A DNA stretch of 60,468 nt. It comes from Bacteroidales bacterium. Its GTDB lineage: Bacteria; Bacteroidota; Bacteroidia; Bacteroidales; Muribaculaceae. Numbering within the stretch: position 1 is the first letter of the stretch; the number at the start of each line of letters is the position of its first letter. Of the stretch, positions 46,781 through 50,624 are shown piece after piece. Location: assembly GCA_014800795.1 (NCBI GenBank), contig JAAVFL010000015.1, positions 1 to 60,468 of the forward strand, written 5' to 3'. The translations under genes and the position numbers were made by a program. The notes below the pieces were generated by a model. The model was not told the origin of the DNA, did not search any database, and saw only the letters and a list, made by a program, of their open reading frames with translations.

Positions 46781-47998
46781 TCAGTCTTTATCAAGGAAAA
46801 AGCGAGGTATGTTGGCGATGAAAGTTCCCGGTGAGGAAAGGAGGTCGCGACACGCTATAAGATCCGATAGCAGGATGTCGCCGATTATGTAATTATTATG
46901 TTCCGAGATATATGTCTCGTTAATCCGGACGAACGGCATGCTGTCCGGCAGCATTCTGTCGGTGAATCTAAGATAAACGCGCAACTCCACATCAGTGGTG
47001 TATCCGGGAAGTTCCAGATAATTCATCTTCTTGTATTCATAGCGGTATCCGTGGCGGCGGGCCATGACGTCGCTGAGAATCGAGGAGGCTGTAGGAAGTG
47101 ATCCGGCTCCTTTGCCGAACATAAACTGACGGTCGTAGCATTCGCCCCGTATGACAACGCCGTTGTATTCGTCGTCGACGCTGTAGATATATTTTGACGG
47201 GCTTACGAACTCTGGCATAACGAACATGGTGAACTTTGAGGGTTCGACTTTTACTACTTGAGCTACCAACTTGATCTTCATTCGCTTCTCGCGGGCATAC
47301 TGTATGTCGAAACTGCTCAGGGAGGATATTCCGTAAGTGAATATGCGGTCGGGGGCCACATAAACGCCGAGTGCATGAACCGTTATGATGATAAGTTTGA
47401 ACAGCGAATCAAATCCTTCGATGTCGAACGATGGGTCACTTTCTGCGAATCCGAGTTCCTGCGCCCTGCGGAGGGCGTCGGCGTACTCCTCGTTGTGGTC
47501 GAACACGCGTGATAAAATATAGTTCGATGAGCCGTTGAGGATACCTTTCACTTCCAGCAGCAAGTCGTTGTCGTAATATTCCTCAAGGTTGCGGATTACG
47601 GGGATTGACCCGCATGAGGAGGCATCGTAGAGCAGGGCGGTATCGTAGCGTCGCTGCAGGTCGATCAGTTCAGGCAGATGTCGGGCAATCATTGCCTTGT
47701 TGCCGGAAACAACCGGAATGCCTTTCCGCAATGCAGATGTAACGATACGGTATGACGCCTCGGGACTGTCGACAACCTCTACTATCAGATTGATATCGGG
47801 ATCGTTGAGAATCAGTGATTCGTCGTCGGTAAGGAGTTCCGGCTCGGGAGTGACCTTCCGGGGTTTGTTGATGTCGCGGACACATATGCGGCGTATCACG
47901 GCGTGGGCGTTTGTGGCGCGTTTCATCACCTGATATATTCCCTGGCCAACTGTGCCGAAGCCGAAAAGGCCTATGTTAATTGTCTGTTCTATACTCAT
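46781..47998 (-). CDS. hom: Homoserine dehydrogenase
   Basis: 405 residues, monofunctional; reduces aspartate semialdehyde to homoserine. NIGLFGFGTVGQGIYQVM binds NAD(P); GNKAMIARHLPEL and LEVKGILNGSSNYILSR and ESDPSFDIEGFDSLFKLIIIT are family motifs. A C-terminal ACT-like region (about 325-405) suggests feedback control. It overlaps the end of metX by 23 bases and is third in metY-metX-hom, so homoserine supply is tied to methionine synthesis. Confidence 0.94.
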   Translation of the reverse strand: MSIEQTINIGLFGFGTVGQGIYQVMKRATNAHAVIRRICVRDINKPRKVTPEPELLTDDESLILNDPDINLIVEVVDSPEASYRIVTSALRKGIPVVSGNKAMIARHLPELIDLQRRYDTALLYDASSCGSIPVIRNLEEYYDNDLLLEVKGILNGSSNYILSRVFDHNEEYADALRRAQELGFAESDPSFDIEGFDSLFKLIIITVHALGVYVAPDRIFTYGISSLSSFDIQYAREKRMKIKLVAQVVKVEPSKFTMFVMPEFVSPSKYIYSVDDEYNGVVIRGECYDRQFMFGKGAGSLPTASSILSDVMARRHGYRYEYKKMNYLELPGYTTDVELRVYLRFTDRMLPDSMPFVRINETYISEHNNYIIGDILLSDLIACRDLLSSPGTFIANIPRFFLDKD

Positions 47999-49007
47999 CT
48001 GTGATAAATGGTTTGATAATGTTTTCGAGCTGTTTATGCTCTGTCAGGAAACCGTCGTGTCCCATGCGTGAGGAGATCTCCCTGAAAGTGGCTCGCGGGA
48101 GCATGGCTGCCAGAGAGCGGGTTTCGTCGGGGGTAAATACGATGTCTGTGTCAATGCCTACCACAAGCGACGGCATTGACAGCCGCGAGAGCGCTTTTAC
48201 CATTCCCCCCCTGCCGCGCCCTACGTTGTGGGTGTCGAACGCATCGAGAATGGTGACATATGAGTAGGCGTTGAACCTGCGGCATAGTTTCTCACCCTGA
48301 TATCGCTGATATGTCACCGGGCGGTGGAGATGGTCGGCGGGAGCATCGTCGGGGTCGGTCTGGGTAAGATTATAGGCGTATGGCCCCCGGTAGGACAGCA
48401 ACCCTATGGCTCTGGCAGCTGCCATGCCGGCCATACCGGCTTCCGGCGAAGGATTCCCGTATGTGGGGTCGGCTTTGATAGCCATGCGTTGTGTCTCGTC
48501 GATAGCTATACTCCAGGGGGAGGCCTTTGCAGAGGTTGCGATCAGAACCAGTTTCCCGAATCTCGAGGGTTCGGAAATTGCCCATTCCAATGCCTGGAAT
48601 CCTCCGACTGAAGCTCCGATAAGTGTGTTGATGAATCGTAGTCCGAGGTGATCGGCGAGCAATGCGTGTGCCCGGGCCATATCACGGATGGTAATTGGTG
48701 GGAAGCTGTCGTAATATGGCTTTCCGCTATCAGGGTTGATGGAAAGCGGACCTGTGGTGCCGTAGTGCGAACCGATAATATTGGCACATACCACAAAGTA
48801 TTTTTCGCTGTCGATAAACGAGCCTTTATCTGTTGCGCCTGGCCACCAGTCGGCCACGTCGCTGTTGGCCGTTAGCCCGTGGCATACCCATACGGCGTTG
48901 TCACCCCTTTCGTTTAGTTTTCCGAAGGTGTGGTATGCTATGGTAAGTTCTTCAAGGCTACCCCCTCTTTCAAGCGGAAAGGTGGCAGCGGAGCGGTATA
49001 GTTTCAT
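47976..49007 (-). CDS. metX: Homoserine O-acetyltransferase
   Basis: 343 residues, alpha/beta hydrolase fold. Nucleophile elbow IGASVGGFQALEW, Asp in VVGIDTDIVFTPDE and His in GHDGFLTEH form the triad; LTANSDVADWW near the start is typical. Acetylates homoserine with acetyl-CoA (acetyl is inferred; a few MetX proteins use succinyl-CoA). Its ATG overlaps the metY stop as ATGA. Confidence 0.94.
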   Translation of the reverse strand: MKLYRSAATFPLERGGSLEELTIAYHTFGKLNERGDNAVWVCHGLTANSDVADWWPGATDKGSFIDSEKYFVVCANIIGSHYGTTGPLSINPDSGKPYYDSFPPITIRDMARAHALLADHLGLRFINTLIGASVGGFQALEWAISEPSRFGKLVLIATSAKASPWSIAIDETQRMAIKADPTYGNPSPEAGMAGMAAARAIGLLSYRGPYAYNLTQTDPDDAPADHLHRPVTYQRYQGEKLCRRFNAYSYVTILDAFDTHNVGRGRGGMVKALSRLSMPSLVVGIDTDIVFTPDETRSLAAMLPRATFREISSRMGHDGFLTEHKQLENIIKPFITDEYRTDN

Positions 49008-50296
49008 ATCTGTGCCGAAGCTTCGAATGCCTGTTGGAAGTCGTCGATAATGTCGTCGGTGTCTTCAAGCCCTACGGATATGCGCAGTAGGGTAGGGGTT
49101 ACCCCAGCTACTGCCAGATCGGCATCACTGAGCTGTTTGTGAGTGGTTGAGGCCGGATGTGTCACTACGGTGATCGAATCGCCGATCATGGTCATATGGG
49201 CGGCCAACTGAAGCGATTCCACGAATTTAACGGTGGTGTCGAGGGTTCCGTTTAGTTCTACTGTCAACACAGCCGATCCTCCGTCGCGGAAATATTTCTT
49301 CGCTTTTTCGTGGCTGTTGTGATCGGGAAATCCCACGTAGCTTACGCGCTTCACGAAGGGGGATGAACGCAGCCATTCGGCGAGTTTACGGGTGGATGCG
49401 ATCTGATGGCGTACGCGCAGAGATAGAGTTTCGAGTCCGAGCATCATAAGATAGCTGTCGAATGCCGATGGAGAGGCTCCGAAATCTCGCAGACCGTCGA
49501 CACGACATTTTACCACAAAGGCAGCCGGGCCGAAAGCTTCATACAGGTTCAGACCGTGATAACCCTCCGATGGTCCGGCTATCTGAGGGAATTTTCCGTT
49601 GTTCCAGTCAAATTTTCCGCCGTCAACGATAATGCCTCCCATGGCGTTGCCGTGGCCGTTGATCCATTTGGTGGCGGAATCCACTACGATGTCGGCTCCC
49701 CAGTCGAATGGGTTGCATAAGTAGCCTCCTGCACCGAATGTATTGTCGATTACCAATGGGATACCATGAGAGTGAGCTACTGCAGCAAGACCCTCTATGT
49801 CAGATACCTCACATGTCGGGTTGCCCATACTTTCGGCGAATATCGCGCGGGTATTTCCGTCGATCAGGGGGGCGTATGCCTCAGGTTCGTTTACGTCGGC
49901 AATCCGAATCTCGATGCCGAGTTTGCGCAGGGTATGTCGGAAAAAGTTGTACGTTCCGCCATATAGGAATGGGGATGCGACGATGTTCTGTCCGGCGGCG
50001 GCCAGAGATGTGACAGCAATCAGAATCGCTGACATTCCCGACGATGTTGCAACCGCCCCGACACCGCCGTAGAGTGCGTTGACACGCTCCTCGTAGGAGC
50101 TTGATGTAGGGTTCTGGAGACGTGTGTATATATTGCCACCTTCGCTTAACTCGAATAGGCGGGCGGCGTGGCCGCAGTCTTTAAACCGATATGCGGCTGT
50201 TGGATATATCGCGACACCGCGTGAACCTGTCGGTTCGTCAGGTGTTAGCCCTGCGTGAATCTGTCGTGTTTCGAATCTGAGTTTCTTGAAATCCAT
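49004..50296 (-). CDS. metY: O-acetylhomoserine aminocarboxypropyltransferase (sulfhydrylase)
   Basis: 430 residues from ATG 50296 (an upstream in-frame start at 50329 would lie in the attenuator hairpin). FETRQIHAGLTPDEPTGSRGVAIYPTAAYRF, then VVDSATKWINGHGNAMGG with the PLP lysine, and SLETLSLRVRHQ are diagnostic for the Cys/Met PLP family, and size fits the sulfhydrylase branch. It uses sulfide to make homocysteine directly. First structural gene of the operon, 21 bases after the terminator stem. Confidence 0.94.
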   Translation of the reverse strand: MDFKKLRFETRQIHAGLTPDEPTGSRGVAIYPTAAYRFKDCGHAARLFELSEGGNIYTRLQNPTSSSYEERVNALYGGVGAVATSSGMSAILIAVTSLAAAGQNIVASPFLYGGTYNFFRHTLRKLGIEIRIADVNEPEAYAPLIDGNTRAIFAESMGNPTCEVSDIEGLAAVAHSHGIPLVIDNTFGAGGYLCNPFDWGADIVVDSATKWINGHGNAMGGIIVDGGKFDWNNGKFPQIAGPSEGYHGLNLYEAFGPAAFVVKCRVDGLRDFGASPSAFDSYLMMLGLETLSLRVRHQIASTRKLAEWLRSSPFVKRVSYVGFPDHNSHEKAKKYFRDGGSAVLTVELNGTLDTTVKFVESLQLAAHMTMIGDSITVVTHPASTTHKQLSDADLAVAGVTPTLLRISVGLEDTDDIIDDFQQAFEASAQI

Positions 50297-50316
50297 GTTG
50301 GTGAATATAATAGAAT

Positions 50317-50344
50317 CGCCCGGCTCCAAAACTGAAGCCGGGCG
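50317..50344 (-). terminator. Attenuator terminator hairpin before metY
   Basis: Minus-strand stem CGCCCGGCU / AGCCGGGCG (9 bp, 50336-50344 with 50317-50325), extendable to 11 bp with a G-U pair, then the U-rich AUUCUAUUAUAUU. Its 5' arm is also the 3' half of the antiterminator: CCGGCUUCA (50333-50341) pairs perfectly with UGAAGCCGG (50392-50400), which begins at the first base after the leader-peptide stop codon. The two structures exclude each other. Confidence 0.8.
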
Positions 50345-50400
50345 TATGTTTGTAGATTTAATTATCTCTGAATTTACATGTCAAATCAATGCCGGCTTCA

Positions 50401-50493
50401 TCAGTGGAACCACATTATCATCATCGACATCATCATTAATCTCATTTCCTGTGGAAACGGGACGGAATAACTTGATGATGAAATGTACGCCAT
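50401..50493 (-). CDS. Methionine-rich leader peptide of the metY-metX-hom attenuator
   Basis: A 30-codon ORF read by eye on the minus strand: ATG at 50491-50493, TGA at 50401-50403. It begins MAYISSSSYS and ends MRLMMMSMMIMWFH, with Met at positions 17, 20, 21, 22, 24, 25 and 27. It is the first ORF of the transcript, about 20 bases from the predicted start point. The antiterminator strand begins straight after its stop codon, so a ribosome reaching the stop would cover it and let the terminator form. A ribosome waiting for Met-tRNA at codons 20-25 would leave it free to block the terminator. Mechanism is inferred by analogy with trp/his leaders; the arrangement is seen directly. Confidence 0.85.
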   Translation of the reverse strand: MAYISSSSYSVPFPQEMRLMMMSMMIMWFH

Positions 50494-50521
50494 TATTTGA
50501 AACCTTTGTTTGATTATTGTA

Positions 50522-50552
50522 CAAAATTAGAGATAAAAATTTTCTAATCCAA
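50522..50552 (-). promoter_or_regulatory. Promoter of the methionine operon
   Basis: Minus strand TAATTTTG (50522-50529) with TTTG about 20 bases upstream. The start point near 50515 places the leader ORF at the very front of the mRNA. Confidence 0.65.
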
Positions 50553-50624
50553 ATTTTCAGCAATGTTTTTCCAATCCGCAGATAGTAGAGTAGTGGAGTT
50601 GATTAAATGGGATGGATAAAGAAA

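Follow-up and report, generated by a model that had tools for sequence, protein, structure and literature searches.

The locus analysed here raises the question of how a member of the Muribaculaceae (below: the family) may adjust the expression of its methionine operon metY-metX-hom. In most accounts, methionine genes are regulated by SAM riboswitches, T-boxes or repressors. For the 60,468-nt stretch of DNA under study (the window), a preliminary description had proposed a methionine attenuator, composed of a Met-rich leader peptide and mutually exclusive hairpins in front of this operon. Our analysis makes it very probable that a ribosome-mediated transcription attenuator, which would sense charged methionyl-tRNA, controls metY-metX-hom. 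Direct support comes from the parts of this element and how they are spaced, from their conservation in relatives, from base changes that leave three mutually exclusive helices intact, and from the methionine genes that it precedes.

The whole attenuator locus lies on the minus strand, 5' of metY-metX-hom (Table 1). The promoter, the 30-codon Met-rich ORF, the 9-bp pairing and the terminator-like hairpin of the preliminary description are all present in the sequence. TTTG and TAnnTTTG, which we take to be Bacteroidota-type promoter boxes, are represented by TTTG and TAATTTTG, separated by a spacer of 20 nt. Seven of the last 14 codons of the leader ORF encode Met, and the Met-rich pattern ATGATGATGNNNATGATG has a single occurrence in the 2.7 Mb genome, namely the window leader. 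Across 59 genomes of the family this pattern was detected at 23 places, three of which are class A (window-like) leaders (L155, L163 and the window); the remaining 20 places revealed no such arrangement by eye and were rejected as leaders.

Table 1. Features of the attenuator locus and of the methionine operon, given as positions in the window.
Feature	Position	Strand	Basis
-33-like box TTTG	50550..50553	-	sequence
-7-like box TAATTTTG (TAnnTTTG)	50522..50529	-	sequence; 28 nt 5' of leader AUG
Leader ORF MAYISSSSYSVPFPQEMRLMMMSMMIMWFH, 30 codons	50401..50493	-	sequence; Met-rich ORFs at the same place in relatives
Met run, seven AUG codons (codons 17-27)	50413..50445	-	sequence
Segment 1 AUGUGGUUCCA, 5' side of the 1:2 hairpin	50405..50415	-	folds, -4.6 kcal/mol; equivalent hairpin in relatives
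Segment 2 UGAAGCCGGCAU, 3' side of 1:2; first nine bases = 5' side of antiterminator 2:3	50389..50400	-	sequence, folds, relatives
Segment 3 CCGGCUUCA, partner of segment 2 and terminator 5' arm	50333..50341	-	sequence, folds, relatives
Terminator-like hairpin 3:4, 12 pairs	50317..50344	-	folds, terminator scan; -24.5 kcal/mol
Tail AUUCUAUUAU, weak U-tract	50307..50316	-	terminator scan
metY, O-acetylhomoserine sulfhydrylase	49004..50296	-	TIGR01326 above cut-off
metX, homoserine O-acetyltransferase-like	47976..49007	-	best NCBIfam match TIGR01392, below its cut-off
hom, homoserine dehydrogenase	46781..47998	-	NF004976 above cut-off

The pairing starts right after the leader stop, as had been described: UGAAGCCGG (50400-50392) begins with the base that follows the stop codon UGA and is the perfect complement of CCGGCUUCA (50341-50333). 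The claim of a terminator that shares an arm with the antiterminator holds with respect to the 12-pair hairpin, but the tail AUUCUAUUAU is a poor U-tract. Likewise, the two alternative hairpins of the preliminary description are both kept in relatives, but the picture was incomplete, because a 1:2 hairpin (50415-50389) also competes for the antiterminator strand. The energy of helix 2:3 in the window is -17.2 kcal/mol (1:2 and 3:4: Table 1). Across the leaders the energies range from -1.9 to -9.6 kcal/mol for 1:2, from -10.7 to -27.2 kcal/mol for 2:3 (duplex, without loop cost) and from -9.3 to -31.7 kcal/mol for 3:4.

Folding of the 71 nt around hairpin 3:4 yielded -25.2 kcal/mol compared with -10.8 +/- 2.5 kcal/mol for shuffles (z -5.8), and the fold of the 231-nt window leader differed from its shuffles with z -5.2. 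Pairing of the ORF-end region with the terminator arm was equalled by one of 300 composition shuffles. Folded by itself, the part of the leader that begins with the last Met codon and runs to the terminator 5' arm was only weakly better than shuffles (z -1.5, 16/200), and 0.5 sites like the hairpin would be expected by chance in 601 bases with the simple terminator scan. UGAAGCC of segment 2 (50400-50394) has a further potential partner in the full-length fold, GGUUUCA (50504-50498) just 5' of the leader start codon; this pairing might be a fourth state of the leader. The window copy has all parts, yet it is divergent: the stop codon lies before segment 2, 1:2 is formed from other bases and the U-tract is weak, whereas a clear U-tract follows the stem in most aligned relatives. 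An early stop akin to that of the window is found in L126, a leader before metX.

MetY is present in 9 of the 14 genomes of the genus (E<=1e-100), and leader and metY co-occur in these same nine genomes. Loci of relatives were taken from the best 80 of 297 MetY matches in named genomes, 58 of which show at least 67% identity. Leaders were read in 57 loci, i.e. the 58 without L066, in which the N-terminus is missing; the 22 loci at 47-51% identity were left out. The 57 loci comprised 21 class A leaders, ten leaders of a different Met-rich type (class B) and 26 loci with no leader, one of which (L030) has merely 133 nt of upstream sequence. Alignment A1 was made with 25 leaders (21 of class A and four of the genus, the window excluded), in which the terminator ends of L013 and L021 were set by eye. 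Alignment A2 consists of 61 rows, 40 of them distinct, and includes the window. An alignment of relatives had been suggested as a check of the proposed attenuator, and it bore the proposal out: the Met run and both helices are kept with compensating changes, and the first halves of the peptides are unlike one another. Class A peptides end mostly with MMMxMMCM(C/R)(S/N)RxSR(V/G), and the Met codon adjoining segment 1 is invariant (25/25 in A1).

In A1, the terminator helix 3:4 is 89.8% paired, compared with 30-54% when slid by 1-3 columns, and shows changes on both sides at 8 of 11 pairs. Twenty of 500 shuffles reached this number of pairs changed on both sides; none reached the percentage or the covariation score. 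The antiterminator 2:3 is 82.4% paired (28-52% when slid) with changes on both sides at 6 of 10 pairs (1/500 shuffles). RNAalifold proposed, unasked, the third helix 1:2, which reaches from the base after the invariant Met codon into the stop codon. After one pair had been added by hand, 1:2 is 93.1% paired compared with 33-42% when slid, and two of its seven pairs are changed on both sides. At its first pair, 11 leaders have U-A, eight C-G and two U-G, and four of the 25 are unpaired. For this helix the pairs changed on both sides (307/500) and further pair types (320/500) were not above shuffles in A1; the cells changed on both sides and the covariation score were (0/500). The base-change support for 1:2 is weaker than that for 2:3 and 3:4. 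An overlap with the 1:2 hairpin would explain the conserved look of the peptide ends.

Alignment A2 was made by a model without helix 2:3. In its 40 distinct leaders 2:3 is 83.2% paired, compared with 27.6-51.9% when slid; pairs changed on both sides were not above shuffles (200/500), and the remaining measures were. Helices 1:2 (92-96% paired) and 3:4 (86.5%) are those to which A2 was fitted. The mutually exclusive helices predicted here, 1:2, 2:3 and 3:4, are the full attenuator scheme of the trp/his type.

A covariance model (R1) built from A1, from which the window had been excluded, detected the window leader with 45.8 bits (E 8.7e-9 when the window was searched, E 3.9e-7 for the whole genome, where it was the sole match at E<=0.001). 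Among 397 genomes of the family, 50 revealed a match at E<=0.001. At least 39 bits were reached by 39 sites in 38 genomes, every one with a Met-rich ORF and a methionine gene 3' of it; the window score is among the lowest of these accepted sites (36th of 39). Individual reading covered every site that lacked a metY match and all but one of the weaker sites. A methionine-pathway gene lies directly downstream of the leader in the window and at 39/39 accepted sites of the family: metY at 31, metX at seven and a cystathionine-synthase-like gene, 32% identical to the window MetY, at one (G264). The genome with the latter gene carries two leader copies (L121, L122), before the cystathionine-synthase-like gene and before metX. 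In another genome (G308), the metY counted among the 31 is a 105-residue remnant followed by metX; the leader L103 is kept before it, as if selection acts on metX control.

A rival explanation is a chance arrangement, in which an ordinary terminator stands behind an incidental Met-rich ORF; terminators alone do give weak R1 matches (11 genomes of the family, four in the order). In the family, weak matches of 30-36 bits occurred in 12 genomes; the 11 that were read (all but G242) are ordinary terminators. Of the 39 accepted sites, 21 are R1 training sequences (equal scores) and 18, the window included, are not. All 18 lie before methionine genes, eight of them before a gene other than metY. Together with the compensating changes in three helices, this makes chance exceedingly improbable as an explanation of the window, and for the family as a whole the aligned sequences already contradict it.

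A close MetY (at least 67% identity) was found in at least 45 genomes of the family. An R1 leader is present in 30 of these, G299 has a divergent leader and G286 a class B leader by eye; 11 genomes, G036 among them, are without a leader, and G276 and G145 offer too little upstream sequence. The leader is common in the family, not universal. Many genomes of the family contain another MetY-like protein, about 43-46% identical to that of the window. R1 gave six matches in 393 genomes of the order. The window and one member of its genus were accepted, and the other four were judged to be terminators with long inserts and no Met run like that of the family. The filters of R1 are stricter in searches of more than 40 genomes, so that weak relatives may be missed.

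Promoters and peptides were counted in 43 leaders (the 40 distinct A2 rows and L126-L128), 42 of which are long enough for the promoter box. Leader starts were set to the first in-frame ATG, by which L010 and L122 are too long, and L120 is cut by a contig end. Of these 42 leaders, 31 carry TAnnTTTG at a distance of 5-60 nt 5' of the AUG vs 1.26 expected by shuffling. The last 20 codons contain a median of six Met (range 3-8) and at least one Cys in 37/43 leaders, two or more in 21/43.

Class B Met leaders were found before metY at L035, L039, L045, L047, L048, L055, L058, L059, L060, L062 and L252. Their peptides end with MRMCR, mostly MSMRMCR, and in 10 of the 11 loci a GUGCC-GUUA/GGUA/GCUA/GAUA-GGCAC hairpin around the stop codon is accompanied by a further hairpin. 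A clear intrinsic terminator was not found in these ten, and comparison of four class B loci with Rfam revealed no match.

The arrangement of class A leaders suggests how the attenuator could work. With sufficient methionine, the ribosome would reach the leader stop and cover segment 2, whereupon 3:4 would form and transcription would end soon after 50317. A ribosome covers up to 12 nt past the stop codon, according to the accessible text of PMC4833913. If charged Met-tRNA is short, the ribosome would stall within the Met run; one held at the final Met codons would mask segment 1, leaving segment 2 free to form 2:3, and RNA polymerase would read on. In an untranslated leader 1:2 would form and lead to the terminator. 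A stall earlier in the run, at the first Met codons, would not disturb 1:2, and the effect should thus come mainly from the last Met codons. Stalling, termination, the methionine response and the working state of the divergent window copy are the steps that we infer.

The same sensor could also have a translational output, if 3:4 in this species mainly blocked translation of metY rather than ending transcription. Such an output would be in line with the window stem, which ends 20 nt 5' of the metY AUG, and with the U-poor tail behind it. The clear U-tract of most aligned relatives argues against it, and the distance from stem to start codon in class A (16 to 85 nt) is too variable to make masking of the start a likely output. 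We consider mainly translational control by 3:4 unlikely and prefer the transcription attenuator; the window copy may act in part on translation of metY.

A ligand-binding riboswitch or a T-box, with the small ORF being incidental, would be suggested by the SAM-I riboswitches found upstream of these genes in other families of the Bacteroidales. Searches with Rfam 15, however, revealed no match at gathering score in the window and none in six related loci. The Met run is in frame and adjoins segment 1, and the conserved structure consists of three simple alternative hairpins, all of which leaves a riboswitch or T-box a very slight probability beside the Met-tRNA attenuator.

The SAM-I riboswitch binds SAM directly and does not need translation. 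Its family RF00162 was detected in 0/37 genomes of the family, the window's own genome included, and in 9/24 genomes of other Bacteroidales families. Eight RF00162 loci comprised four before metY-type genes, one before a related enzyme (32%) and one before metX as well as, by reading, one before metH and one before aspartokinase. Twenty of 24 metX loci outside the family were read. SAM-I lies upstream on the same strand in 13 of these 20 (ten before metY, three before metX), and a convincing Met leader was found in none of the 20. The only candidate that passed the filter, a Met-rich ORF at L213, lies on the strand opposite to metX at a distance of 3.6 kb and was regarded as a chance occurrence. 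One of the two sensors, SAM-I or the Met leader, seems to have replaced the other on this operon, which offers a testable case of RNA sensor replacement with charged Met-tRNA instead of SAM as the signal. A more far-reaching interpretation, which we put forward tentatively and regard as somewhat doubtful, is that a new attenuator RNA family senses charging with Met as well as with Cys and displaced SAM-I from metY-metX in the family. The pathway would then follow translation of its product, not SAM. Two points speak against sensing of both amino acids: some of the Cys codons fall within segment 1, where base pairing may be the reason for their conservation, and the peptide of the window leader contains no Cys.

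The data describe a complete Met-codon attenuator of predicted function that is supported by compensating changes in leaders from across a large family of gut bacteria. If it works as proposed, transcription and translation in these bacteria would be coupled closely enough for classical attenuation. In the open PMC literature, as far as its texts are accessible, we found no complete Met attenuator; subscription papers may predict one. Leader peptides were known from Proteobacteria and Actinobacteria, and Firmicutes were added, according to the available part of a 2010 survey (PMC2965389). For the methionine operons of Actinobacteria, the accessible sections of PMC1262725 mention no RNA structures upstream. 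A methionine-responsive 5' UTR has been described in Xanthomonas in a text in which the word 'leader' is absent (PMC6230763), and 5' UTRs of B. thetaiotaomicron contain sORFs which are 'reminiscent of leader peptides' in the part of PMC7366714 that is available.

Comparable leaders have been proposed elsewhere. In Streptomyces lividans, metL encodes a proposed leader peptide containing several Met before a methionine-related operon, as here. In contrast to our locus, this operon (metNIQ) encodes a transporter and has a leaderless start, and in the accessible text the authors found no typical Rho-independent terminator and show no competing helices (PMC8079986). Flavobacterium psychrophilum belongs to the same phylum and displays 'strong clues' of leader-peptide attenuation before amino-acid biosynthesis operons (PMC9723704, available part); the amino acids concerned are not named there, and the word 'methionine' is absent from the main text of that study. 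SAM-I (RF00162), in other families of the Bacteroidales, resembles the Met leader in acting on this operon by way of a terminator. The Met leader also resembles the trp, his, leu, ilv, thr and phe leader attenuators, which have an ORF with codons for the end product, the helices 1:2, 2:3 and 3:4 and a terminator before the first gene (PMC1262725, PMC2965389, in their accessible parts). The Met leader differs from these in that methionine would be sensed, in its occurrence in a different phylum and in having no Rfam match. It also differs from the trp/his type in its ORF, which runs through 1:2, the stop codon being the last 1:2 pair in most relatives. The mechanism is an established one, whereas the amino acid, the lineage and the RNA family appear to be new.
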